A DNA stretch of 40,132 nucleotides from Patescibacteria group bacterium (GTDB taxonomy: Bacteria; Patescibacteria; Microgenomatia; Levybacterales; UBA12049): assembly GCA_023381035.1 (NCBI GenBank), contig JAMCTK010000052.1:1-40132 (forward strand), given 5' to 3'. The translations under genes were made by a program, and so were the position numbers. Positions 5,020 through 29,087 of the stretch are shown one piece after another. How positions within the stretch are numbered: position 1 is the first letter of the stretch; each line of letters starts with the position of its first letter. The notes below the pieces were generated by a model. It was given only the letters and a program-made list of their open reading frames with translations, was not told where the DNA came from and searched no databases.

Positions 5020-6126
5020 ATGAATGAACAAGACCCATCACATTTAAATCCTCAACCAGAAAATTTTCAAAATGCGTTTGATTTTTGCCAACAAGCCACA
5101 ATTTTAGCTTCCAAAGGAATAACCGAAGGACTAGAAAACAAGGCGATAACCAATGCTTCCTTTTTTCTTCCAAACAACAGTGTTTTGACAATAATGCATT
5201 TTAAAGATCTTGATTATGTTGCTGTTCAGGCCTGCATTTGGAAAAAAGCACAGATTGGAGAAACAACTGTGGTTCCCGTTCGAAAATATACAGTCGTATA
5301 TGAGAATAATGCTCTGGTTACAGACGAAATTGTGACCTCTGTTGAAGTTTATTATCCAAAAAGTCTCACGACTGATCCCAATTTTGATCAAGCAATCAGT
5401 CAATTAAAAACAGCTTGGGAGGAAAAAACTAGAGAAACTAATATCTCAAGTGTTTTAGAATCCGCACAACAACTCGAACCGTTTACTTTAAAAGAAACTC
5501 TTCTACCGTCAGACATTTTAGAAGACAGGGGTGGAGGTTTTAAAGCTTATGTTGAAAATACTGAAGAAGAAAAAAAACATAAACTTGAAAGGTTAAAACG
5601 TTTTTATGAAACTGTTTCCAGGCTTACCAATAAAGGAAAATCTGAGGATCTTGACAAAGGCGTCATGAAAACAGCTACCTATCCCTTAGATGATTGTAGC
5701 GTTGCCTACCTTGGACAATGGGAACAAGATGAAATCAGTGTAGTAAGAGCTACTATTGTCGATACTTTTTTTGATGAAAATGAAAAGATTGTTTTAATAC
5801 CAAAAGATCATTTTTCAGCAATATTTTTAACCAGTGACCAATCTATACAATCAATCTCTGAAGATGTTGTTTTCAATTCAGAAGTTAGCTGGAGTGCCGT
5901 AAAAGACATAGAGACTACTTCTCAAAGCTCAGCTCCAGATAGCGCACTTGCTTTAAAAGAACACATGGGAGAAAGATCAAGTGTTGATGTTATTCATCAC
6001 ACCCTAAGCATTTTAGAAGACTTGCGACCTCATGACAGAATAGATCACAGTTCAACCCTTCTCCCCCCTCTCAAGACACAAGAAATTATTGCCTTAAAAC
6101 AGATGGTATTGACGAAGAAAGAGTAA
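5020..6126 (+). CDS. Hypothetical protein with apparent internal duplication, 368 aa
   Basis: I do not recognise this protein. It is soluble, with no signal peptide or membrane helix. By eye, residues around 22-75 (with KGITEGLENKAITNASFFLP) resemble residues around 190-245 (with KGKSEDLDKGVMKTATYPLD). Both copies have a KG-x-EDL-like segment, then an aromatic-x-L and a Ser-Val strand. This suggests two tandem copies of one domain of roughly 170 residues. The gene sits between rplA and rplJ, where bacteria normally have no gene. It has its own near-leaderless promoter, and the rplJ promoter lies at its 3' end. Function unknown. Confidence 0.75.
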   Translation: MNEQDPSHLNPQPENFQNAFDFCQQATILASKGITEGLENKAITNASFFLPNNSVLTIMHFKDLDYVAVQACIWKKAQIGETTVVPVRKYTVVYENNALVTDEIVTSVEVYYPKSLTTDPNFDQAISQLKTAWEEKTRETNISSVLESAQQLEPFTLKETLLPSDILEDRGGGFKAYVENTEEEKKHKLERLKRFYETVSRLTNKGKSEDLDKGVMKTATYPLDDCSVAYLGQWEQDEISVVRATIVDTFFDENEKIVLIPKDHFSAIFLTSDQSIQSISEDVVFNSEVSWSAVKDIETTSQSSAPDSALALKEHMGERSSVDVIHHTLSILEDLRPHDRIDHSSTLLPPLKTQEIIALKQMVLTKKE

Positions 6127-17844: not shown

Positions 17845-18201
17845 ATGCCATCCCTAGCCGAAAGTGGATACTGCCCACCGGAATTTTCCCTTAAAGTTCC
17901 TCATGATAAAGGACTTTTTCTGTTCTACACTAAAAATGGCGGCCGAGAAATAAAAGCCTTAACTGAAATTGATGACACTGGAACTCCCCCACGACCACTA
18001 ACGCCAGAAGAAGCAAACCAAGCGAGTGATCTTGTAACAAAATTTTGTAAAGGAGAGAAGATGATCGTTGATTTTTCCACCACGATGGAACCTTCTCGAC
18101 TTCAAGATACCTTAACTCAAATTAGAGATATCCTCGCTTCTACAGCTAAACAAAATCCAAGCAAGCCTAACGAAGCAATCCTAAGGCCTGTTTTTACCTA
18201 A
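17845..18201 (+). CDS. Hypothetical protein, 118 aa
   Basis: I do not recognise this protein. It is soluble, with no signal peptide, and has a GLFLFYTKNGGREIKALTEI segment likely to form strands, a PLTPEEANQASDL helix and a C-terminal helix. An in-frame TTG at 17806 coincides with a TTGACA -35 box, so the ATG at 17845 is preferred. A TATAAA-like -10 box (17827-17832, spacer 15; or two bases later, spacer 17) lies about 10-12 nt upstream. It is the first of a run of orphan genes after tRNA-Pro. Confidence 0.6.
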   Translation: MPSLAESGYCPPEFSLKVPHDKGLFLFYTKNGGREIKALTEIDDTGTPPRPLTPEEANQASDLVTKFCKGEKMIVDFSTTMEPSRLQDTLTQIRDILASTAKQNPSKPNEAILRPVFT

Positions 18202-18206
18202 ATCGC

Positions 18207-18234
18207 TTTACTTTTTAAAAATTTGGAGTATAAT
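18207..18234 (+). promoter_or_regulatory. Promoter of the frameshifted gene at 18245
   Basis: TTTACT (18207-18212), a 16-nt spacer and TATAAT (18229-18234) end 10 nt before an ATG. This fixes the start codon of the following gene and shows that the shift lies inside it. Confidence 0.65.
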
Positions 18235-18244
18235 TTGCCATTAA

Positions 18245-18827
18245 ATGAAAAAAAGAGGCTCTTAGTATTGCGGCAAACTTTTCAAGAAAAGCAAGAAGAT
18301 ATTTTTTCCCCCAAGATCATACTGATGATCCCTACCCTGATTGGACTAGTGGCGAAATTTCCAACAGAAGAACTGAGGTTAAGCTTAAATCTTTTGAGGA
18401 AGTTTTAGAGCATGCGGTAGAAGCTGAAAGCGTAAGAATTGAAGTGGCTCTATTAGCCGATCCATCTACAAAATCTTTTTTAGAACCCAAGCTAACAGAA
18501 GGCTCCAGATTTGTTGTTGATGACGGAGAAAATCAATATACATTCTTAAGACCTTATTCGTCTCAAACATTAAATCCATCGTTAGAAGCTATTAAAAGAA
18601 GAGAACAAGATGTAACAGCAATAAAAGAGATTATAGGAGATAAGACAGTCATTATTTATGAACCAAGCGAAGATGCGCAATGGCAAAAAATACTTGCTGA
18701 GCACCATCGCTCTATTCCTGCATCTGGAGTTTTCGAAGCAAAACAATCTTCAGTAGCGGAGGCTCAAAAGACTATCTTTCCTCTAAGCACAGTTCGTCGC
18801 ATTCCAAGAACCCCTGTAGCTATTTAA
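18245..18827 (+). pseudogene. Hypothetical protein gene with +1 frameshift in a seven-A run
   Basis: The promoter points to the ATG at 18245, but that frame stops after MKKRGS. Skipping one base of the A-run at 18248-18254 opens a frame continuing to 18827. The restored product would be about 193 aa, beginning MKKEALSIAANFSRKARRYF and ending RRIPRTPVAI. The downstream frame has no other ATG, GTG or TTG until a GTG at 18444, well inside the coherent sequence. The product is soluble and unrecognised. The cause could be true decay, an assembly or sequencing error, or productive +1 slippage, since tRNA-Lys can re-pair on AAA. Confidence 0.65.
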
Positions 18828-19006
18828 TATAAATCCTTATTCACATTCTTATGCTTGAGCAATTAGCCCATCCATCCCACTCTCGTCTTCTCTTAGGCTT
18901 ACACTTTCTGCAAAAAAAGAGGATCTAGCAAAAATAGCGCAAAGCTGTGCAGGTGATGAGGTTTGCGTATAGATTTTTCTTTTTAATCCCAGCTCAAATA
19001 ATAAAT
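18828..19006. other. Intergenic stretch with a possible gene remnant
   Basis: A 25-codon frame starts at an ATG near 18851, and an overlapping shifted frame continues with AKKEDLAKIAQSCAGDEVCV before a stop. Read together they resemble a short degraded coding sequence. There is no convincing promoter, so I only note it. Confidence 0.2.
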
Positions 19007-19034
19007 TTGCTTTTTTAAATTTTTTCTATATAAT
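19007..19034 (+). promoter_or_regulatory. Promoter of the gene at 19042
   Basis: TTGCTT (19007-19012), a 16-nt spacer and TATAAT (19029-19034) end 7 nt before the ATG, predicting a leaderless mRNA. Confidence 0.65.
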
Positions 19035-19041
19035 CGCCATT

Positions 19042-19497
19042 ATGAGTAGGATTATTGAAGCAGGAAGAAGAATTTTGCCCGCAAGGCAGGTCCAGTCACT
19101 GGATGAATTCATAGAGCTTACCCAGGGAGCAAGAAAAATAAAAGTCCAGAAAAAAGTTATCCTTCCTTATGAATATGGTAGTCCTGAATTCATCTGCTTT
19201 AGAAAAATAGAGGCTGTTGCTGAAAATGGAAGAAGAGTTTTAATTAGGGGAAATAACCACATTGAAGTTGATTACTCAGAAAGCATGGCTAAACAGCAAG
19301 AAAGAGCAGAGTTGCGACTTGATGCTACAGTCGGAAAAGAGATCGCTCGATTAACGGAAAACGGGCTACCTATACCAAGAGTCGTTGGAGAACGACGCAA
19401 TAACCTAGGAGTTATTTTGCATATGAAGCGATGTGCCAGTGATCAGAACATTAGACCAATTGCGTTAAATAACGGGAATATTTTTGCCAGACCTTAG
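19042..19497 (+). CDS. Hypothetical protein, 151 aa
   Basis: I do not recognise this family. The protein is soluble and basic, beginning MSRIIEAGRRILPARQVQSL. A central part with alternating strands (FICFRKIEAVAENGRRVLIR) looks like a small beta-rich domain, and a helical stretch SESMAKQQERAELRLDATVG follows. No membrane helix or cysteine motif is seen. It is transcribed alone from a leaderless promoter, with another promoter 6 nt after its stop. It belongs to the orphan cluster downstream of tRNA-Pro. Confidence 0.65.
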   Translation: MSRIIEAGRRILPARQVQSLDEFIELTQGARKIKVQKKVILPYEYGSPEFICFRKIEAVAENGRRVLIRGNNHIEVDYSESMAKQQERAELRLDATVGKEIARLTENGLPIPRVVGERRNNLGVILHMKRCASDQNIRPIALNNGNIFARP

Positions 19498-19503
19498 TTC
19501 ATC

Positions 19504-19532
19504 TTTACATTTCCTGAAAACCTCAATATAAT
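19504..19532 (+). promoter_or_regulatory. Promoter of the AlkD-like gene
   Basis: TTTACA (19504-19509), a 17-nt spacer and TATAAT (19527-19532) end 8 nt before the ATG at 19541. Confidence 0.7.
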
Positions 19533-19540
19533 TTGCCTGA

Positions 19541-20245
19541 ATGACCACACAAGAGATCATTAAAGAGCTTCAAAAGAAGCGTAACCCTGTTAACATTGCC
19601 GGAATGGCCAGATTTGGTATTAAACCAAAGAAAGAACCCTTAGGAATTGCTATGCCTACTCTTAGAAAAATATCTAAAGAGATCAAACATGCTCACCAAC
19701 AGCCTCAAGAACGTCATGAACTAGCCACGAAGCTATGGAAAACGGGAATCTATGAAGCACGACTTATAGCTGCTTTTATCGAAGATCCAGAGCTAATTAG
19801 TGAAAAACAAATGGAGACTTGGGTTGCTGATTTTGACAATTGGGCAATTTGCGATACAGTCTGCGGAACTGTTTTTGATCGCACTCCCCTTGCCTACGAA
19901 AAAGCTCTTGAATGGACAAAAAGACAAGAAGAATACGTAAAACGAGCCGGATTTACTATTGGAGCCTGGCTTACGGTTCATGATAAAAAAGCCAAGGATT
20001 CTGATTTTTATCCATTTTTAAAAGCCATAAAAGAAGAAGCAGCTGACGAAAGAATTTATGTAAAAAAAGCTGTAAATTGGGCTCTCAGACAAATCGGAAA
20101 GTCCAGAAACAGAAAAATGAACATACTCGCATTAAAAACCGCAAATGAGATCAAAAAAATTGACTCAAAAGCAGCTCGCTGGATAGCAAGCGATGCCATT
20201 CGCGAGTTAAATTCCCCTGCCATCCAAAAAAGATTTAAAGATTGA
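19541..20245 (+). CDS. DNA alkylation repair protein, AlkD-like
   Basis: The 234-residue, all-helical protein matches the AlkC/AlkD-type HEAT-repeat DNA glycosylase family. Recognisable elements are the N-terminal GIKPKKEPLGIAMPTLRKIS, LATKLWKTGIYEARLIAAFI, the aromatic/aspartate segment WVADFDNWAICDTVC, and the later KAVNWALRQIGKSRN. AlkD enzymes excise N3- and N7-alkylated purines without flipping the base; the WxxDFDNWxxxD region carries the usual active-site Trp and Asp residues. It is transcribed singly with a probable leaderless start. Its TGA stop lies inside the -35 box of the next gene. Confidence 0.85.
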   Translation: MTTQEIIKELQKKRNPVNIAGMARFGIKPKKEPLGIAMPTLRKISKEIKHAHQQPQERHELATKLWKTGIYEARLIAAFIEDPELISEKQMETWVADFDNWAICDTVCGTVFDRTPLAYEKALEWTKRQEEYVKRAGFTIGAWLTVHDKKAKDSDFYPFLKAIKEEAADERIYVKKAVNWALRQIGKSRNRKMNILALKTANEIKKIDSKAARWIASDAIRELNSPAIQKRFKD

Positions 20246-20270
20246 CACGTCTACCAATGATTGTTATATT
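20242..20270 (+). promoter_or_regulatory. Promoter of the gene at 20280
   Basis: TTGACA (20242-20247) overlaps the preceding stop codon. A 17-nt spacer and TATATT (20265-20270) follow, ending 9 nt before the ATG. Confidence 0.7.
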
Positions 20271-20279
20271 TAGACCCTA

Positions 20280-21125
20280 ATGACAGAAAAGGTTACCTCG
20301 CTGAGAAAAGTTCAAACATACGTTTCCATATTTGACGAACTTGATCCAAATAAAATATCCGATTACGAGACATATCACGGCACAGGAGGGGATGTTATCA
20401 AAGATTTAAAAGTGGCTCTACCGATCGTTGTCCGCGACTTTCAAAAAGGCTTACACACCCCGGACTTACCAATTCATGTCCCGATTTATCGATCTTACGA
20501 ACTTATGAAAATGTCAGTAGCACAAAAGATTTATATTGACAGACGAAAAAAACTCGATCAAATTAAATCGGCCATGGATGCTGTAAGACTATCCACAGAT
20601 GTTGCCGTAGCCTGTTTTTCAAGAGATAAGAGCGCACTTAAAAAGGTTGAGCACTTTGAAGCTTTCATTAAAAACAGCAGTCTTGAAAAAATGCTACTAA
20701 GAAGGGTTGATGAAGACCCAGACATTGGAATAATGCCTGAGCATCCCGGAGAAGAAGATGCAAAACTGGCTTCAGAACTAAAAAAGAAAACCGGAAAAGC
20801 AGATATCTTAGCAATCATGCTTGGAAATAGAGGGTTACGAAGAGGTCTCAATGTTTTTCTAGATTATAGAGCACAAACAAACACTCCGAACTCAGAGCCT
20901 TGGCCAATAAGATACTCCCCTAGTCATGGAGATCGAGTTCCAAATTTAGCAGTTGCAGAAATTACCCATTTACAAAAAATGACAAGAGGAAAATATATAG
21001 TTGTAATTGGACCTCAAGACAGAATAGATTTTGCACAACATTATTTCAGAGAAATTGGACTTAGAGCTAACGGAGATCCAAAAACAAAAGTAATCCCTGT
21101 CCCCCTTGGAATTCATTCAAATTAG
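20280..21125 (+). CDS. Hypothetical protein, 281 aa
   Basis: I do not recognise this family. The protein is soluble and mixed alpha/beta with no signal peptide. It has a middle helical region rich in charged residues (AQKIYIDRRKKLDQIKSAMD), a KADILAIMLGNRGLRRGLNV segment, and a C-terminal part with GKYIVVIGPQDRIDFAQHYF that looks like a Rossmann-type strand-turn-helix. It is expressed from its own near-leaderless promoter. The conserved-looking HGDRVPN segment could be functional, but I cannot assign a reaction. Confidence 0.65.
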   Translation: MTEKVTSLRKVQTYVSIFDELDPNKISDYETYHGTGGDVIKDLKVALPIVVRDFQKGLHTPDLPIHVPIYRSYELMKMSVAQKIYIDRRKKLDQIKSAMDAVRLSTDVAVACFSRDKSALKKVEHFEAFIKNSSLEKMLLRRVDEDPDIGIMPEHPGEEDAKLASELKKKTGKADILAIMLGNRGLRRGLNVFLDYRAQTNTPNSEPWPIRYSPSHGDRVPNLAVAEITHLQKMTRGKYIVVIGPQDRIDFAQHYFREIGLRANGDPKTKVIPVPLGIHSN

Positions 21126-21144
21126 TACTATTCCCTTGAATCAC

Positions 21145-21173
21145 TTGACATAGAAAGATGTACTTGCTATTAT
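21145..21173 (+). promoter_or_regulatory. Promoter of the gene at 21181
   Basis: TTGACA (21145-21150), an exact 17-nt spacer and TATTAT (21168-21173) end 7 nt before the ATG. It is one of the cleanest leaderless promoters here. Confidence 0.75.
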
Positions 21174-21180
21174 CTCGCCA

Positions 21181-21669
21181 ATGAGCGCAAAAGCAGAAAA
21201 TGACATTTTTCTTGAAGAAGGTGTCTTGAACACTCAATTTCTAAAGAATTCACTATTAGCAAGGCTTAAAGAAGTATCCACAAGACAGATGTCTTATGGT
21301 TATGGCTTAGGAGATCGTCTATATTCATCAACTCACCCAGAGGATCAAAAGCTTGCGTCAGAAATGAGAGGCTTTATTGGAGGACTTAAAGATTTATTTA
21401 AGACTAGAAACATAGAGGTCGATGATCAATCAGCCAACCCCGATCAGTTAACAGACTCTATGGTTTTAGGAGGATTCATGTTTGCGCTTGATCATGGAAC
21501 AGCACATATTTCAGGGAAACCTACATCACCCGAGAGGAGAGCTGACTTTAAAAAATGGGCAGAGGGAGCGTTACTAGGCTATACTGCAAATCAAGCATTA
21601 GGAGTTCTTTTGTCCGGAGACGATCAATCTGTTAGGACAAGAATCCATCAGGCTCTCTGCGCATTCTAA
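21181..21669 (+). CDS. Hypothetical protein, 162 aa
   Basis: I do not recognise this protein. It is soluble and predominantly helical, with a glycine-tyrosine-rich SYGYGLGDRLYS segment, a VLGGFMFALDHGTAHISGKP region and a C-terminal GYTANQALGVLLSGDDQSVR stretch. No membrane helix is present. It has its own promoter and ends 3 nt from the convergent fhs gene, with no terminator hairpin between them. It is the last member of the orphan cluster that begins after tRNA-Pro. Confidence 0.65.
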   Translation: MSAKAENDIFLEEGVLNTQFLKNSLLARLKEVSTRQMSYGYGLGDRLYSSTHPEDQKLASEMRGFIGGLKDLFKTRNIEVDDQSANPDQLTDSMVLGGFMFALDHGTAHISGKPTSPERRADFKKWAEGALLGYTANQALGVLLSGDDQSVRTRIHQALCAF

Positions 21670-21672
21670 TTA

Positions 21673-23337
21673 TCAAAACAATCCCACTGTTTTTCCGCTT
21701 GAATCAACATCTATTTTCTCCGCAGCAGGCATTTTTGGCAAACCGGGCATTGTCATAATATTTCCGGCAAGAGCAACCACAAATCCTGCACCGGCACTAA
21801 ATTTTAGCTCTCTAATAGTTACTTTAAAACCAGATGGTCTTCCAAGTAATTTTGGATTATCTGAAAGTGAATATTGAGTCTTAGCAATACAGACAGGAGC
21901 TGCTTCAAGCCCAAGCTTTTTTACTTCTTTTAACTGATTTTTAGCAAAATCAGTAAATTCCACCCCATCTGCTCCGTAAATTTCTCTAGCTACAGTTTCA
22001 ATTTTCTGAGCAATAGAGTAATTATTCGGATATAAAGGCTTAAAATTTGTTTTTTGCGAACTTATTACATCGACCACTTTTTTAGCAAGATTTACTCCCC
22101 CACTTCCACCTTTTGCCCAGACCTGAGTTAAAACAACCTCCGCTCCGGCTTTTTTGCAAAGAGATTCTACTAATTCAACTTCTGCTTTGGTATCGGTTGG
22201 AAACTCATTAATAGCCACAACCACAGGCACTTTGTATTTTTTAATATTCTCAAGGTGTTTTTCTAGGTTTGTGAAACCTTTTTGCAAGGCCTTAAGATTT
22301 TCTTTGGTTAGATTTTTAAGCTCTGCCCCACCATGATATTTTAGAGCTCTGATTGTGGCAACTAAAACAACTGCATCGGGTTTTAGTTTGCCGAAACGGC
22401 ATTTGATGTCAAAAAACTTCTCTGCTCCCAGATCAGCACCAAATCCAGCTTCAGTTACTACATAGTCGCCTAATTTTAAGGCCATTTTAGTAGCAATAAT
22501 CGAGTTACAACCGTGAGCAATATTGGCAAAAGGACCACCATGAATTATGGCGGGAGTTCCCTCCAAAGTCTGAACTAAATTTGGTTTTAATGCGTCTTTT
22601 AAAAGCACTGCCAAAGACCCTGTGGCTTTAAGGTCACTAGCGGTCACAGGGATGCCTTTTGTGTTGTAAGCTACTACTATACTTCCTAAACGTCTCTTTA
22701 AATCCCTAAGGTCATTAGAAAGGCATAAAATGGCCATTATTTCCGATGCAACGGTTATCATGAAACTTTCTTTTCTGACAACTCCATGTCCGTCTAAACC
22801 AATCTCAATACTACGAAGAGATCTATCATTTAAATCCATTGCTCTTTTCCAAAGAATTCTCTTAGTATCTATTTTCAGCTTATTCCCTTGAAAAAGATGA
22901 TTGTCAATTAAGGCAGAAAGCAAATTATGAGCAGTTGTCATGGCATGAATATCACCTGTAAAATGCAAGTTAATGTCTTCCATGGGCACAACTTGGGCAT
23001 ATCCTCCCCCTGCTGCTCCCCCTTTTACTCCAAAACAAGGACCAAGAGATGGTTCTCTCAATGCAACAACTGTTTTTTTTCCGATTTTATTTAACCCCAT
23101 AGACAAACCAACGCTCACTGTGGTCTTGCCCTCCCCTGCAGGAGTCGGATTAACTGCAGTAACAAGTATTAGTTTCCCATCTTTTTTACCTTGTAGTTTT
23201 TTAAATAAACTAAGAGGCAGCTTAGCCTTGTATTTTCCATAAAGCTCTAGAACGTCAGGATTAATTTTAAGTTTTTTTGCAACTTCAGTTACGGGCTTAA
23301 TTTTGGCTTCTTGAGCGATTTGGACATCGGACTTCAT
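21673..23337 (-). CDS. fhs: Formate--tetrahydrofolate ligase
   Basis: This enzyme makes 10-formyl-tetrahydrofolate from formate, THF and ATP for purine and initiator tRNA formylation. The 554-residue length is normal. Signatures include the P-loop region [20 protein letters not shown], then [40 protein letters not shown] and the C-terminal [15 protein letters not shown]. It is the only C1 enzyme in the window; folD or purine genes are not adjacent. A TTTAAT/TATAAT promoter ends 8 nt before the ATG, so it too appears leaderless. The gene is divergent from dsbA. Confidence 0.96.
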
Positions 23338-23345
23338 GAAAAATG

Positions 23346-23374
23346 ATTATACCGATAAGTTGGTAGAAATTAAA
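23346..23374 (-). promoter_or_regulatory. fhs promoter
   Basis: On the minus strand there is TTTAAT (23369-23374), a 17-nt spacer and TATAAT (23346-23351), ending 8 nt before the fhs ATG. Confidence 0.6.
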
Positions 23375-23411
23375 GATGGAAAAAATTGACAAGAGTAAAC
23401 TTTTGCTTAGC

Positions 23412-23440
23412 TTAATTTTTCAATTAAAATGTGTTATCAT
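23412..23440 (+). promoter_or_regulatory. dsbA-VKOR promoter
   Basis: TTAATT (23412-23417), a 17-nt spacer and TATCAT (23435-23440) end 7 nt before the ATG at 23448. The -35 is weak. Confidence 0.5.
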
Positions 23441-23447
23441 ACTCTGT

Positions 23448-24173
23448 ATGGAAAATCTCACCAAGAAAGAGAAGAAAGAGCTTCATAAGTACGAAGCTTT
23501 GGAAAAACTGCAGAAAGAACACCGCAATAATTTAATTAAAAAAATTATCTATTGGGTACTGGGAACAGCAGCCTTAATTTTAACAGTTTGGGTATTGCTT
23601 GTTTCTACAACCTCAAATCAAGCAACAGAAACCATAGCTGTTAAGGCTCCCCCAATAACAAAAGATGAGATATCGACCGGTCCGACAGGTGCAAAGGTCA
23701 CAATTATCGAATATGCTGATTTCCAGTGTCCGGCTTGTGCAGCGTATTCTCCGATAACAAGACAGCTTAAAAAAGAGTTTGAAGGAAAAATAAGATATAT
23801 TTTCAGATTCTTCCCTCTTTCTTCTCATCAATATTCAATGATTGCAGCCCAAGCAGGATATGCAGCATATCTTCAAGGCAAGTTTTGGGAAATGGACAAT
23901 CTTTTGTATGACAATCAAAAGACCTGGTCATCATCAACCGAACCACTTAAGTATTTCAAGGAATACGCAACATCTCTTGGGCTTGATATGTCTAAGTTTG
24001 AAGCTGATATGAATGCAGAAAGTACTAAAAACTTTATTAAGAATCAATCAAGTAAAGGCACAGAAGCAGGAGTTAATTCGACTCCCAGTTTTTTTATAAA
24101 CGGGGTAAAAATTCAAAATCCTCAAGGATATAACGCTTTTAAAGCTCTTATTCAAGCTAAGCTTGATCAGTGA
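23448..24173 (+). CDS. Membrane-anchored DsbA-like thiol oxidoreductase
   Basis: The 241-residue protein has a cytoplasmic charged segment, one membrane helix (IIYWVLGTAALILTVWVLLV) and an extracytoplasmic thioredoxin-fold domain of the DsbA/thioredoxin_4 type. The active site CPAC lies in EYADFQCPACAAYSP. A helical insertion follows, and the cis-proline loop appears as GVNSTPSFFINGVKI. It should introduce disulfides into exported proteins. The start is the ATG 7 nt after the -10 box; an earlier ATG at 23376 would include the promoter. The VKOR gene follows after 6 nt, giving a complete oxidase/re-oxidase pair. Confidence 0.9.
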   Translation: MENLTKKEKKELHKYEALEKLQKEHRNNLIKKIIYWVLGTAALILTVWVLLVSTTSNQATETIAVKAPPITKDEISTGPTGAKVTIIEYADFQCPACAAYSPITRQLKKEFEGKIRYIFRFFPLSSHQYSMIAAQAGYAAYLQGKFWEMDNLLYDNQKTWSSSTEPLKYFKEYATSLGLDMSKFEADMNAESTKNFIKNQSSKGTEAGVNSTPSFFINGVKIQNPQGYNAFKALIQAKLDQ

Positions 24174-24179
24174 TCTTAT

Positions 24180-24635
24180 ATGCTCTCTTTCTCCAAACTT
24201 AAACACCCTGCTCTTGACCAAACAGGAATCAGTATTGTTCTGCTTATCCTTAGTTTTCTTGGTTTTATAGATGCTGCTTATCTGACAATTACCCATTATC
24301 AAAATGTCATTCCTGCTTGTACTGTTCTTGGAGGATGCGAGCTGGTTGTGACCAGTCAATTTTCAACAGTTCTTGGTATACCTTTGGCACTTTTAGGCAC
24401 AATCTATTTTTTTATTTTGTTCTATCTTTCAATTGCAATTTTATCTTCTCGCAAAAAACTTTACGCTAAGTTATTTAACAGATTTGCCTACTTAGGGTTA
24501 TTAGTTTCTTTATTTCTGTTCTTAATTCAAGCTCTTATTCTTAAAGCTTTTTGTCAGTATTGTCTTCTCTCAGAGGCTATTGCTTTGTCCATATATATTT
24601 TCAGTATCCAACTCCTACGCAAGCATACCGACTGA
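24180..24635 (+). CDS. VKOR family quinone-dependent thiol oxidase
   Basis: The 151-residue four-helix membrane protein matches bacterial vitamin K epoxide reductase homologues. The loop cysteines appear in ACTVLGGCELV and the quinone-side CxxC is FCQYC, with the downstream helix containing LLSEAIALSIYIF. In bacteria lacking DsbB, VKOR re-oxidises DsbA and passes electrons to quinone. The gene is 6 nt downstream of the DsbA-like gene, so the two form an operon. Whether this organism has quinones is not visible here; many CPR genomes lack respiratory chains, which makes the electron acceptor an open question. Confidence 0.9.
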   Translation: MLSFSKLKHPALDQTGISIVLLILSFLGFIDAAYLTITHYQNVIPACTVLGGCELVVTSQFSTVLGIPLALLGTIYFFILFYLSIAILSSRKKLYAKLFNRFAYLGLLVSLFLFLIQALILKAFCQYCLLSEAIALSIYIFSIQLLRKHTD

Positions 24636-24649
24636 TTTCCGGTTTTCAT

Positions 24650-24679
24650 TTGACATCAAAGAGTGAGCTCCTTTATAAT
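24650..24679 (+). promoter_or_regulatory. Promoter of the split-frame gene at 24689
   Basis: TTGACA (24650-24655), an 18-nt spacer and TATAAT (24674-24679) end 9 nt before the ATG at 24689, fixing the start of a gene whose main frame is shifted. Confidence 0.7.
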
Positions 24680-24688
24680 CTTAAGTCC

Positions 24689-25020
24689 ATGAGAAATCTA
24701 GAATCACTACGAAGCTTAAACAAAGAAACAGGATTTTTAAAAATCTTATTGGATTTCAGGTTCAAAAAGAACCTCGAATTGCCAAACAACCTGATCTTCC
24801 TGAAGTAAGTCCTGAAGACATATTTATCTTAGAAAAACCTTATAGCGAAAAACTTTTTGAAAACGAACATCTGCCTAAGCCTATGTTAAGAATGGTCAAA
24901 GATTCAGGAGAAGTTGTAATAGAAGAAGACCTTTCGGAAAAATCCCCAAAGAGAACTGCAGAAATAACTATTTTCACTGCTCCAAGATTAATAAAGAGAA
25001 TTTTGGAACAAAACACTTGA
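24689..25020 (+). pseudogene. Hypothetical gene with -1 frame change; candidate programmed frameshift
   Basis: The promoter-defined ATG opens a 39-codon frame ending at 24808 (MRNLESLRSLNKETGFLK...). The downstream -1 frame runs coherently to the TGA at 25018-25020 (NLIGFQVQKEPRIAKQPDLP onward to RLIKRILEQNT) but has no start codon of its own. Where both frames are open, the canonical slippery heptamer T TTA AAA lies in phase at 24736-24742. A perfect 6-bp hairpin (24758-24763 with 24769-24774) follows 15 nt later. A -1 shift there would give about 110 residues. A one-base deletion near the start, decay or an assembly error are the alternatives. The product is unrecognised. Confidence 0.6.
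24736..24774 (+). promoter_or_regulatory. Slippery heptamer and downstream hairpin
   Basis: T TTA AAA (24736-24742) is in the phase needed for -1 slippage. AGGTTC (24758-24763) and GAACCT (24769-24774) form a stem with an AAAAA loop. The 15-nt spacing is longer than the usual 5-9 nt. Confidence 0.4.
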
Positions 25021-25054
25021 CAGCGAGTGATATAGTACAATTAGAGGTAATTTT

Positions 25055-25378
25055 ATGTCTCTTGCAATAGAAGCCAGCATCGCAAGAACTGAGCAAACAA
25101 GCACTCTTCACATAGTTGCCGAGCCTATTTCCCCGATTATCCAGCCTTTTCAAGAACCAAGAATCATACCAAAAGCACGATTTGAAGGATTAATTGAATC
25201 GTACATGGGAGGATATTGTCCCCTTACAAGAGCGGAAGCTGAAAAAAAAGCAAGAATTGAACTTGGTGATAATAATTATATTATTGATGTTTCCGAATTT
25301 TCGACTAAAGCCTCTGAGTCTAAGCCAATTGAGATATTCTCTTCAAAAAATACAATTCCCGAAGCATTAATTGCCTGA
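25055..25378 (+). CDS. Hypothetical protein, 107 aa
   Basis: I do not recognise this protein. It is soluble, beginning MSLAIEASIARTEQTSTLHI, with a central IESYMGGYCPLTRAEAEKKA segment in which a helix of charged residues follows a Gly-Tyr-Cys turn. An AGAGG Shine-Dalgarno-like site sits about 7 nt before the ATG, so unlike its neighbours it is not obviously leaderless. It starts 34 nt after the split-frame gene and could be co-transcribed with it, although a TTGACA overlaps the preceding stop codon. It ends 2 nt from the convergent ndk gene. Confidence 0.6.
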   Translation: MSLAIEASIARTEQTSTLHIVAEPISPIIQPFQEPRIIPKARFEGLIESYMGGYCPLTRAEAEKKARIELGDNNYIIDVSEFSTKASESKPIEIFSSKNTIPEALIA

Positions 25379-25380
25379 GA

Positions 25381-25845
25381 TTATTTCTTTTCTTCAGGTA
25401 GGTAAACGAAGTCTAAATCCATTTTCTCCCAGCTAAATAACTCGTGGTCATTAAATAGAAGCTTTACTTCTTTTATGGCAATTTCTGCATTTTCGGAAGC
25501 ATGAATCAAATTGTATTGCTGACTCATGGCAAAATCCCCTCTTACTGTTCCAGGATCTGCTTCACGAGCCTTGGTAATTCCTACTAATTTACGAATTGTG
25601 CTAACAGCTTCGTTCCCCTCCCAACACATAGCAACGACTGGATAAGACTGCATATAGGATTTTAGTCCTGGGAAAAAAGGCTTGTCTTTGTGATGCGCAT
25701 ACCACTCGTCCAAGAGTGCATCGTCTAGAGAGATCATTTTAAGTCCTATTAGCTTAAGGCCTTTTCGCTCAAATCGATGGATTATTTCCCCAATCAAGCC
25801 TCTTTGGACTCCATCAGGTTTTACAATAATTGCAGATTTTTCCAT
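25381..25845 (-). CDS. ndk: Nucleoside diphosphate kinase
   Basis: Ndk balances nucleoside triphosphate pools by transferring the gamma phosphate through a phosphohistidine. The 154-residue sequence carries the whole fold: KSAIIVKPDGVQRGLIGEII at the N-terminus, PFFPGLKSYMQSYPVVAMCWEG in two adjoining segments, the RKLVGITKAREADPGTVRGD nucleotide-binding region, and the catalytic histidine in NLIHASEN. It is slightly longer than the common 140-150 residues, with a short C-terminal tail. It follows the M16 peptidase gene after 18 nt on the minus strand and probably shares its transcript. Confidence 0.95.
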   Translation of the reverse strand: MEKSAIIVKPDGVQRGLIGEIIHRFERKGLKLIGLKMISLDDALLDEWYAHHKDKPFFPGLKSYMQSYPVVAMCWEGNEAVSTIRKLVGITKAREADPGTVRGDFAMSQQYNLIHASENAEIAIKEVKLLFNDHELFSWEKMDLDFVYLPEEKK

Positions 25846-25863
25846 ATTTGATAACTACGTTAA

Positions 25864-27135
25864 TTACAACTTTAGCAAATTTTCAAATTCTTGTCCACTT
25901 GCAAAATCACCGATTATGGCAAGATTCAATCCCTGTTCAACAAAGTATTTCTGAGCAACCTGCGCGAGCTCTTCACGAGTAACGCCATCTATTTTCTCAA
26001 TGATTTCCTTAATCGTCTCTATTTCCTTATCAAGTAGCTCCTGTTGAGCAAAAAACCCAGCTACAGACCTGCTGTCTTCAAGCTCAAGAACCATATGTCC
26101 TTTTAGAAATTCTTTAGCTTTTTTAAGTTCACTCTCTCCGCCAAATTTTCCTTCTTTGGCTTTTTTAAACTCTCCGATTATGACGCTAATGGCTTCTTTG
26201 ATCTTATGCGGATCAAGACCGGCAAATGCCGTCAATGTTCCATTGTCTAAATAGTGTTCTGAGCTTGTTCTGACAAAATATGCTAGTCCCCTTTTCTCTC
26301 TTACTTCATGGAATAAACGACTGCTTGCTCCTCCTCCTAATATTGCTGATAAAACAGCAAGTGCATATCTGTCCGGAGTCTGATTTGAAGCTGTTTTAAA
26401 ACCAAGGGCAATATGAGCCTGTTCTGTTTTTTTGGATTTAACCAAAACCTTAGGTTTTGTTTGTTTTAAATCAACTTTATCATATCCTAATGTATCGAAC
26501 CTAGTCACTTGACCAAAGTATTTTTGAGCCAAATCAAATGCTTTTTCCGCTGTCACTCCACCGGATATGACAACAGTCATATTGTGAGGGCTATAAAGCT
26601 TTGACATATAGCTAGTAAAATCATCTCTTTTCATAGATCTGATAACTTCCTTTTGTCCGGAAATGTCCCAACCAAGCGGTGTATCTCCAAAAACCAGATT
26701 CTCATAAACGTCACCTATCTTTCGCATAGGGGTATCCTCATACATGCTTATTTCCTGCAAGATTACCCCTCTTTCTTTTTCGATTTCTGCCTCATCAAAC
26801 TTTGAATTCTGTAGAATGTCAGAAATAACGTCTAGACATATTTCGATATGGTTTTTAGCTGATTTGATATAGTATCCGGTGACTTCTTTACTGGTAAATG
26901 CATTAAATTCTCCACCAATACCATCAATTTCTGTCATTATTTCCAAAGCTGTTGGCCGCTTTTCCGTTCCTTTAAAAGCCATGTGTTCTAGGAAGTGGGA
27001 AACTCCATTATTCTGTTTTGATTCGTAGCGACTACCTGCTCCAACCATTGCCATTGCGGTAACGCTTTCCAAAGATGGCATTGGAGCTGCAATAACTCTC
27101 AGACCATTTGCTAAAATTTTGCGTTGGTAATTCAT
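25864..27135 (-). CDS. M16 family zinc metallopeptidase
   Basis: The 423-residue protein is a pitrilysin-family peptidase of the bacterial processing-peptidase-like type. The inverted zinc motif HxxEH is intact in GVSHFLEHMAFKGT, and the distal zinc-ligand glutamate lies in ERGVILQEISMYEDTPMRK. The second, inactive M16 domain contains GGGASSRLFHEVREKRGLAY. The length fits single-chain bacterial enzymes that dimerise. Substrates in bacteria are poorly known. The start at 27135 (MNYQRKIL) is chosen because a TTGGCA/TACAAT promoter ends 11 nt upstream and the earlier in-frame start would overlap it. It is co-oriented with ndk. Confidence 0.93.
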   Translation of the reverse strand: MNYQRKILANGLRVIAAPMPSLESVTAMAMVGAGSRYESKQNNGVSHFLEHMAFKGTEKRPTALEIMTEIDGIGGEFNAFTSKEVTGYYIKSAKNHIEICLDVISDILQNSKFDEAEIEKERGVILQEISMYEDTPMRKIGDVYENLVFGDTPLGWDISGQKEVIRSMKRDDFTSYMSKLYSPHNMTVVISGGVTAEKAFDLAQKYFGQVTRFDTLGYDKVDLKQTKPKVLVKSKKTEQAHIALGFKTASNQTPDRYALAVLSAILGGGASSRLFHEVREKRGLAYFVRTSSEHYLDNGTLTAFAGLDPHKIKEAISVIIGEFKKAKEGKFGGESELKKAKEFLKGHMVLELEDSRSVAGFFAQQELLDKEIETIKEIIEKIDGVTREELAQVAQKYFVEQGLNLAIIGDFASGQEFENLLKL

Positions 27136-27146
27136 TCTGAGAGTTA

Positions 27147-27176
27147 ATTGTACCACTTGGCCTTGCTTTTGCCAAG
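27147..27176 (-). promoter_or_regulatory. Promoter of the M16 peptidase-ndk unit, with inverted repeat
   Basis: On the minus strand there is TTGGCA (27170-27175), a 17-nt spacer and TACAAT (27147-27152). An inverted repeat, CTTGGC (27156-27161) and GCCAAG (27171-27176), spans the spacer and the -35 box and might be a regulator site. Confidence 0.55.
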
Positions 27177-27219
27177 CAAATAAAGCAAAAATAATTCCCG
27201 AATTAAGATTTTGCGCAAA

Positions 27220-27327
27220 TTAAACATGGATCAAAATAGATCGCAATATCTCAGCATGTCTAAGGCTGTTTACGACCGGAACATCATGAAAAGCCTTTAT
27301 TTGGGAATTTCTTCCTGAGGTATTCAT
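27220..27327 (-). CDS. Possible very small protein, 35 aa
   Basis: This frame lies downstream of argS on the same strand. It starts at an ATG with an AAGAAG-like site upstream and ends at TAA. The predicted peptide begins MNTSGRNSQIKAFHDVPVVN and is unrecognised. Nothing else is seen in 27177-27371. Confidence 0.25.
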   Translation of the reverse strand: MNTSGRNSQIKAFHDVPVVNSLRHAEILRSILIHV

Positions 27328-27371
27328 GTTGATTTTCTTCTTATTGATATTTTTTGACCTACTTTGAACAG

Positions 27372-29087
27372 CTACATCTGTTCCGGAGACTCAATCCCTA
27401 AAAGCTCTAGGCCTAATTTTAGCACTCTTGAGGTAATTAGCGCTACGAAAATTCGTAAGTGTTCTTGCTCTGATCCGAGAATTTTGTGCTTCTGATAAAA
27501 AAGGTTAAAGCTTTGAGCAACATCAAACAGATAATTTGATAAAATATTTGGTAAAAGTTTTTCTGCAGCTTGTTGCTTAATCTCAGGGTAACGATAAATT
27601 AACCTTAGAAGATTTTCCTCTTCAACCTCCAGATTATCAAGCTTGAATTTACTTCCCTGATTCAAATCAGTTGGTGAGACTTTAGATTTAGCAAGAATGC
27701 TGTTTATTCTTGCGATCGTGTATTGAAGGTAGGGACCACTATCTCCTTCAAGCGATACCGACTTTTCTATATCAAAAGATACATCCTGACCTGTTCCGAC
27801 CTTTAAGATCGAATATTTGATTGCTCCGATTGAAATTTGCTCCGACACCTTTTCTTTATCATCAGCTTTTATTCTCCCCTCTTTAAGCATTTGCATAACT
27901 TTTTCTTTGACTTGATCAATGAGCCAGTCTACGGTAAGTACATCTCCAGTTCTGCTACTCATTTTTCGATCTGAAAGCTGAACCATGCCCATGGAAATAT
28001 GAAGCTGTTTGCCTTCAAATTTTTCAGGATCTATTAAATCAAGAGCTTTGAAAACAACTTCGAAATATCCTTTTTGCTCACTTGCTACTACGTGAATCTT
28101 TCGATCAAACTTAAATGCCTTGTATTGAGCCTGAGCATTACCTAATTCTTTACCTTCGTAGGTAGGATTCCCATCTTTAGTTATGAAGACACGTCTATGT
28201 AGTCCGTATTTATCTCCGGGGAAAATATAAGCACCCTGGTCAAGCAAGAATACCTTAGGTGTATTGTCTAACACGGTCTGTTTGCCAACTTGTGCCATTT
28301 CGGATTCGAAAAAGAGTTGGTCAAAATGCGTATAAAATCGAGTATAAAACTCGTCGTAGTAATCTAAACTCCATTTTCTAGTTTGTTCATAAATTACCTT
28401 AATATCTTCAGACTTTGAGTAGAGCTTCTCGTTTATGTCATCAATTTCCTGTTTATGCTCTTCATAATCCTGACCGCCAACTACATACCCTTGTCCCAAG
28501 AAATGCACTTTATCTTTGCTGCTCCATTTTTCTACCACTTCCAGCTTCAGATTTTTCTCAGCCATTATTTTCTGAATTCCATAAATAGCTTTGGCAACAT
28601 GAGGACCGATGTCCCCCTGATAGTTTGCCCTAAAAACATCTGCATTTTGTGATTCAAGTAATCTTGAAATGGCTTCTCCTGTTACTAGTGTTCTCATGTG
28701 TCCAATATGCATTTCTTTGTGAGTATTCGGATGAGCATACTCAACCATGATTTTTTGACCATCAAATACTGAATTGTCAGTTTTCTTGCCTGAAGTAAGC
28801 AGGTCACTCAAGGAAGCGCTAAGAAAATCAAGGGAAATGTAAAAATTGATGAAGCCACCAACAGTCTCGACTTTTCGTAGGTACTCTTTTTCCCTTAATC
28901 TAGAACAAATCTTACTTGCTATTTCCTGAGGTGACTTTTTCAGTTCTTTTGCGGCAATAAAAGCAACATTTGTGGTGTAGTCTCCTTTGGAAATGTCTTT
29001 TGGAACTTCTACGGTTATCTTTTCTTTAAACCCGATCCCACTTAAAACAGCTGTCAGATCTTTTTTTATTTGTTCTTTAATATCCAT
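27372..29087 (-). CDS. argS: Arginyl-tRNA synthetase
   Basis: ArgS charges tRNA-Arg; a cognate tRNA-Arg(CCU) is in this window at 15681. The 571-residue enzyme has the N-terminal Add1 domain, the HIGH-type motif HIGH-like in THKEMHIGHMRTL, a KMSSR loop in LSDRKMSSRTGDVLT, and the DALR anticodon-binding domain at the C-terminus. The mid-length insert around DYEEHKQEIDDINEKLYSKS is within normal variation for class I ArgRS. A TAAAAT box ends 7 nt before the ATG, so the mRNA may be leaderless. The promoter overlaps the divergent promoter of the gene at 29149. Confidence 0.95.
   Translation of the reverse strand: MDIKEQIKKDLTAVLSGIGFKEKITVEVPKDISKGDYTTNVAFIAAKELKKSPQEIASKICSRLREKEYLRKVETVGGFINFYISLDFLSASLSDLLTSGKKTDNSVFDGQKIMVEYAHPNTHKEMHIGHMRTLVTGEAISRLLESQNADVFRANYQGDIGPHVAKAIYGIQKIMAEKNLKLEVVEKWSSKDKVHFLGQGYVVGGQDYEEHKQEIDDINEKLYSKSEDIKVIYEQTRKWSLDYYDEFYTRFYTHFDQLFFESEMAQVGKQTVLDNTPKVFLLDQGAYIFPGDKYGLHRRVFITKDGNPTYEGKELGNAQAQYKAFKFDRKIHVVASEQKGYFEVVFKALDLIDPEKFEGKQLHISMGMVQLSDRKMSSRTGDVLTVDWLIDQVKEKVMQMLKEGRIKADDKEKVSEQISIGAIKYSILKVGTGQDVSFDIEKSVSLEGDSGPYLQYTIARINSILAKSKVSPTDLNQGSKFKLDNLEVEEENLLRLIYRYPEIKQQAAEKLLPNILSNYLFDVAQSFNLFYQKHKILGSEQEHLRIFVALITSRVLKLGLELLGIESPEQM

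Follow-up and report, generated by a model that had tools for sequence, protein, structure and literature searches.

An off-frame orphan gene behind a leaderless-type promoter in a Levybacterales contig, with a one-base indel allele as the leading reading

Introduction

Programmed -1 ribosomal frameshifting of the kind described for dnaX and IS3-IS911 combines an in-phase X_XXY_YYZ heptamer, overlapping reading frames, a hairpin shortly downstream and a shift in the -1 direction. The distance between heptamer and structure is usually 5-9 nt, with a minority of cases at 12-15 nt, according to the available part of one source (PMC5009743), and usually 5-8 nt according to the available part of another (PMC4066793). 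Frame-shifted genes that stand alone were treated in the GeneTack work. The accessible part of that paper (PMC3711429) reports apparent recoding in 146 of 19,430 clusters and allows for orphan genes with programmed frameshifts. It expects that 33% of orphan frame-shifted singletons are gene overlaps and that the others stem from sequencing errors and indels; poly-A/T stretches of at least 7 nt are counted as slip-prone. Poly-A/T phase-variable genes are a third group to which the present case can be compared.

The window analyzed here is a stretch of 40,132 nucleotides (contig JAMCTK010000052.1, Patescibacteria group bacterium, order Levybacterales). It holds an orphan gene at 24689-25020 whose start codon and whose coding-like frame do not agree. 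With dnaX and IS3-IS911 the locus shares an in-phase heptamer of the X_XXY_YYZ type, a predicted hairpin within 5-9 nt, the -1 direction and the overlap of both frames. It differs from them in that the heptamer is T_TTA_AAA and not A_AAA_AAG, that the shift would take place at codon 18 of an orphan, that homologues of this orphan were not found in the searches described below and that the case is known from sequence alone. Like the GeneTack singletons, as far as the accessible part of PMC3711429 describes them, it is a single sequence for which a homologue was not found, with one frame change and an A/T-rich tract at that place. Unlike these, it has a well-placed hairpin and a well-defined leaderless-type start, which add to the case for recoding. 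Finally, an A/T tract near the start of a probably fast-evolving gene, with two cases in the window, recalls phase-variable genes, although the tracts are short here (a mixed T5A5 and an A7) and known from one sequence. A text search of the literature yielded no paper joining programmed frameshifting with Patescibacteria and none that brings together leaderless genes, promoters and the Candidate Phyla Radiation; the accessible parts of PMC12641178 and PMC6851277 do not describe such genes for this group.

Results

The contig is bacterial. Its M16 peptidase was found 90% identical to that of relative P0002, the closest among the 120 listed of 7,999 matches, and at most 77% identical to all others among these 120; the organism-named matches among them belonged to Levybacteria/Levyibacteriota or Patescibacteria. 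The genes around the feature are ordered DsbA, VKOR, the orphan, orfB, nucleoside diphosphate kinase (NDK) and M16. A VKOR-family gene (24180-24635, plus strand; PF07884, E 6.9e-20) lies upstream of the orphan. Downstream, orfB (25055-25378, plus strand) is a second, uninterrupted orphan minigene, and a TTGACA at 25017-25022 overlaps the stop codon of the first orphan's -1 frame. The NDK gene (25381-25845, minus strand; PF00334, E 1.5e-48) is convergent.

A sigma-70-type consensus promoter, TTGACA-18-TATAAT, was found at 24650-24679 on the plus strand. It matches the consensus at 12 of 12 positions, ranks best among 19 promoter-like sites in 22000-28000 and shares its layout with other genes of the window. 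The ATG at 24689-24691 stands 9 nt 3' of the -10 box, too near for a leader, as is characteristic of leaderless mRNAs. Similar distances separate the -10 box from the ATG at 5020 (9 nt), 19541 (8 nt), 20280 (9 nt) and 21181 (7 nt). Allowing at most one mismatch, the window contains 7 promoters, 6 of them with an ATG 7-12 nt past the -10 box (genes at 5020, 19541, 20280, 21181 and 24689, and a minus-strand promoter at 2381); the seventh (minus strand, 8650) has an ATG at 1 and at 15 nt. Exact matches to TTGACA-N16-18-TATAAT numbered 648 in 82 genomes of the order, and 246 of these were followed by an ATG 6-9 nt later, compared with 3 matches for the longer pattern read backwards. A total of 109 distinct promoter-ATG pairs were read, all from genomes listed up to G041. 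Open frames of at least 60 codons followed in 94, 13 frames were closed and shorter, and 2 were cut by the contig end. An off-frame layout was seen in 0 of the 107 judgeable pairs, the 13 short ones being judged by eye; the survey covered exact promoters with an ATG at 6-9 nt, which suits 24689 and not the weaker promoter of a second orphan at 18245. Since this promoter-ATG spacing recurs in the window and in the order and mostly opens frames, ATG 24689 is very probably the translation start on a leaderless transcript, with the transcript start predicted from the promoter position. Judged from these sequence patterns, leaderless-type promoters appear to be frequent in this order. The short leaderless frames of relatives (L005, L001) and the 13 closed ones were considered as further cases and rejected, as by eye they either had a later ATG gene or resembled RNA or no gene, and the off-frame layout without a start was not seen among them. 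In three genomes (L159, L179, L233) the promoter is followed at 9 nt by ATGTAA; a gene frame was not seen there, and these may perhaps be small RNAs.

Two reading frames overlap behind this start. The 0 frame runs from ATG 24689 over 39 codons to a TAA (24689-24808, plus strand), while the -1 frame is open over 111 codons (24685-25020, plus strand) and offers its first ATG, GTG or TTG at codon 67 (ATG 24883). The 39 open genes of the window served to train a codon score, by which the -1 frame reached +23.3 over 110 codons and the 0 frame -9.8 over 39 codons. The preliminary description had thus rightly recognized both a strong promoter that sets the ATG and a long coding-like frame that lies in the -1 phase and lacks a start codon; a rare start codon in that frame was considered and found no support. 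On the 5' side of the heptamer both frames score close to each other, whereas on the 3' side the 0 frame falls to -11.1 and the -1 frame rises to +8.1 over 21 codons (24742-24804). A single change from the 0 to the -1 frame is placed best at 24733 (27.6), with 24736-24748 within 1.2 bits, compared with 23.3 for no change. The one-change model is only 4.3 bits above the no-change model, and its best interval, 24733-24748, covers the T5A5 tract. Density ratios for the stretch 5' of the heptamer, calibrated on real genes of the window and favoring the ATG frame when above 1, were 0.6 (13 codons), 4.0 (15 codons) and 2.2 (18 codons); a phased Markov model trained on relatives gave 3.8. Together these values are weak evidence that the frame breaks near the heptamer rather than near the start. 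A break near the start, which the preliminary description had named as the alternative to recoding, is weakly disfavored by them, while an indel at T5A5 is not. Beyond the single frame change, the frame was found without further decay.

The heptamer T_TTA_AAA was indeed found at 24736-24742 (plus strand), in phase with ATG 24689 and within the overlap of both frames. It is enclosed by the T5A5 tract (24734-24743, plus strand), a natural indel site. As a mixed A/T stretch this tract is a poly-A/T stretch of at least 7 nt at the probable place of the change. The 6-bp hairpin with an A5 loop that had been described at 24758-24774 (AGGTTC-AAAAA-GAACCT) is present, but it is merely the tip, and the inner perfect part, of a predicted imperfect hairpin of 14 bp at 24749-24785 (plus strand; -12.3 kcal/mol). 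The spacing had been given as 15 nt and thus longer than usual. As folding extends the stem to 24749-24785, the hairpin begins 6 nt past the heptamer, a canonical distance, and this objection falls. The fold of the 40-nt segment has a z of -3.28, with 1 of 200 shuffles as strong; a 100-nt segment was less striking (z -1.63, 11 of 200 shuffles).

In order to judge these elements, the open genes of the window were used as background. In 11,259 codons of 39 such genes, 104 slippery heptamers were found in phase. T_TTA_AAA itself occurred 9 times (0.03 per 40 codons), and X_XXY_YYZ with Y = A/T 86 times (0.31 per 40 codons), so that chance alone would put a slippery heptamer into roughly one in four overlaps like this one. 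As in-phase heptamers are this common, the heptamer by itself is unremarkable. At exactly this spacing, 0.75% of 10,479 coding positions have an equally strong fold, compared with 0 of 95 slippery heptamers. When three spacers and two segment lengths were allowed, 332 of 10,323 positions (3.2%) were as strong. Under these freer settings, folds of this strength followed slippery heptamers of the window's open genes in 2 of 77 cases and all-A/T heptamers in 19 of 407. Among the 94 leaderless genes of the order, 5 carry a fold of -12.3 kcal/mol or below that starts 45-75 nt past the ATG; their first 40 codons contain 29 in-phase slippery heptamers (Y = A/T), one of them with such a fold. The combination of heptamer and fold, to be expected by chance in a few per cent of cases, is suggestive and not decisive.

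Homologues were sought with the product of the -1 frame. Among 5.8 billion proteins 3 candidates appeared, none at E <= 1; this search took only proteins of 0.55-1.75 times the query length, so that it would overlook relatives that share the break and are annotated with a shorter frame. GTDB contigs gave 131 pattern matches, none of them confirmed. The frame had a homologue in 0 of 7 genomes and none in viral contigs. Matches at E <= 0.1 in 18 of 373 genomes of a class sample and in 5 of 82 genomes of the order were no more than chance. A plasmid search with 24180-25845 gave no match, and in the profile libraries the orphan had no match above the curated cut-off, with one weak NCBIfam match (E 0.039). 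Across these searches, neither a single-frame homologue nor one keeping the frame change was found. Paralogy with orfB, considered for the similar-looking C-terminal stretches, was rejected: the orphan did not align with orfB, and a 9-residue match to the orfB counterpart in the nearest genome compared (G034) had an E of 0.43.

The corresponding locus of G034 shows identities of 92% for NDK, 71% for M16, 54% for VKOR and 47% for DsbA. Two minigenes lie there between VKOR and NDK. One is the counterpart of orfB (L111:2111-2548), preceded by a similar TTGACA stretch and 33% identical over 110 positions (E 3e-8 in that single comparison). Such divergence of a syntenic pair beside an NDK of 92% identity points to very fast evolution. 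Against the 8-kb G034 locus the orphan itself gave only chance-level matches. Of 110 loci checked, 10 (8 genomes, with two pairs of loci sharing a genome) match both VKOR and NDK, and the two matches lie 8-181 bp apart there; in the window the two genes are separated by 745 bp. The locus thus has the appearance of conserved genes between which fast-evolving minigenes were inserted, and the orphan would be a recent or very fast-evolving insertion, for which missing homologues are unsurprising. The second minigene of G034, L111:2639-2833, comprises 64 codons with a TTGACA stretch of its own, between the orfB counterpart and NDK.

A second leaderless-type orphan of the contig was found off-frame at 18245-18827 (plus strand). 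Its ATG 18245 is followed by an A7 at 18248-18254, and the 0 frame stops after 6 codons (TAG). The coding-like frame, 18249-18824, is the +1 frame; it spans 192 codons with a codon score of +43.6 and has no usual start before codon 66 (GTG), with +13.4 over the preceding 65 codons. The promoter consists of a TATAAT at 18229-18234, 10 nt before the ATG, and a weak -35 box (TTTACT). No match in 82 genomes and no family were found for this orphan. The first start codon was located in 12 coding-like frames that lie outside the listed genes. Of the 6 frames with at least 100 codons, all but 18249-18824 and 24685-25017 have a start within the first 60 codons. The contig thus holds two leaderless-type orphans that are off-frame near their start, in opposite directions and at or near A/T tracts. 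As the coding-like frame at 18245 is the +1 frame, a -1 shift cannot join its two frames. A minus-strand frame of 58 codons nearby (18852-19025, score 7.6) also has a late first ATG.

The dnaX linker of 8 relatives was inspected for hints that the lineage uses -1 shifting. An A-rich slippery heptamer was present in 6 of 8 (L243, L244, L246, L247, L248 and L250), but its position differed between them and the folds were weak (-2.2 to -6.1 kcal/mol); the other 2 had none there. The result is not clear-cut and leans to no, and the weights given below were unchanged by it.

Discussion

The leading reading of 24650-25020, to which we give about even confidence, is a one-base indel allele in a young lineage-specific orphan gene. 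Transcription from the strong promoter of the gene would begin at ATG 24689 or immediately 5' of it, and the protein would be read on in the -1 frame as far as 25020. In the given sequence, the frame would be broken by the gain or loss of one base, most likely within T5A5 (24734-24743) or close to it. This allele of a fast-evolving orphan would then be inactive, or else reversible by slippage in the manner of phase-variable genes. The minigene-insertion locus, the second orphan off-frame at its A7 and the coincidence of the best codon-score interval with T5A5 all argue for this. On the other side, the indel leaves a canonically spaced hairpin to chance (3-5%), a single-frame homologue was not found, further decay is not seen, and with 0 of 107 judged pairs of relatives off-frame such breaks are unusual. 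We infer a mutation rather than a recoding site, and likewise the exact place of the break. The indel is preferred because one ordinary process accounts for both the 24689 and the 18245 cases, whereas recoding accounts for the hairpin.

That the locus is instead a leaderless, lineage-specific Patescibacteria orphan with a programmed -1 frameshift at codon 18 is possible but rather doubtful. Ribosomes would start at ATG 24689, and a share of them would slip on T_TTA_AAA at the hairpin 24749-24785 into the long fusion, the rest yielding a 39-residue peptide that ends at 24808. The layout, the start, the heptamer and a hairpin better placed than first described uphold this proposal of the preliminary description. 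In particular, a predicted 14-bp stem with a z of -3.28 follows the in-phase heptamer after a 6-nt spacer, the codon score puts the change best at 24733-24748, and the 0 frame is slightly favored 5' of the heptamer in most tests and the -1 frame clearly 3' of it. Just one of the 29 early slippery heptamers of leaderless genes has an equally strong fold. Of 64 heptamers combined with IS911 stimulators, 55 exceeded twice the background level of shifting in E. coli, and frameshifting genes need not carry efficient motifs, both according to the accessible part of PMC4066793. The same part of that source lists the most efficient E. coli motifs, and U_UU.A_AA.A is absent from this list. Equal folds with spacing left free (2 of 77 slippery heptamers, 19 of 407 all-A/T ones), and at a similar place in 5 of 94 leaderless genes, also weigh against recoding, as do the dnaX of 8 relatives without a clear -1 sign, the likelihood of an indel at T5A5 and the want of a homologue to show conservation. 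The second orphan, which needs a +1 change, carries no -1 signal. The weights are judgements: a recoding prior of a few per cent, multiplied by the hairpin and heptamer evidence, comes to about one in three or four, and the figure was lowered further because the 18245 case pulls it down. In a wider version, the near-start breaks at 24689 and 18245 may be tolerated because expression is recoded or slips.

A sequencing or assembly error of one base, with the living gene in a single frame, is unlikely. Two single-base breaks at or near A/T tracts in one contig, against 0 in the 107 pairs of relatives, would suit it. However, 121 runs of at least 6 A or T are unbroken in the 39 open genes, a partly circular count as these genes were chosen as open, and only the two orphan frames among the 6 long ones checked outside the listed genes lack an early start. 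Still less probable is that the 39-codon 0 frame forms a separate gene, or a leader, with the -1 frame read from a rare start or from ATG 24883 and the hairpin acting as a regulatory element. The internal ATG at codon 67 and a strong predicted fold near the transcript's 5' end are consistent with such an arrangement, but the -1 frame is coding-like well before ATG 24883 (24742-24804), the score of the 0 frame collapses past the heptamer, and in the order such promoters are mostly followed by a gene that opens at the ATG (94 of 109).

If the indel reading holds, 24689 is an ordinary broken orphan, yet the leaderless promoter pattern is useful; if recoding holds, a cellular orphan would use a frameshift, in a group for which our text search yielded no paper on programmed frameshifting. 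The leaderless promoter pattern should allow one to predict where small genes begin in this order, and with it frame breaks close to the start are readily noticed. Orphan minigenes without a known family, with a promoter-like stretch just 5' of the ATG, were seen in 17845-21669 and 24689-25378, starting at 17845, 18245, 19042, 20280, 21181, 24689 and 25055 (some of the promoters judged by eye).
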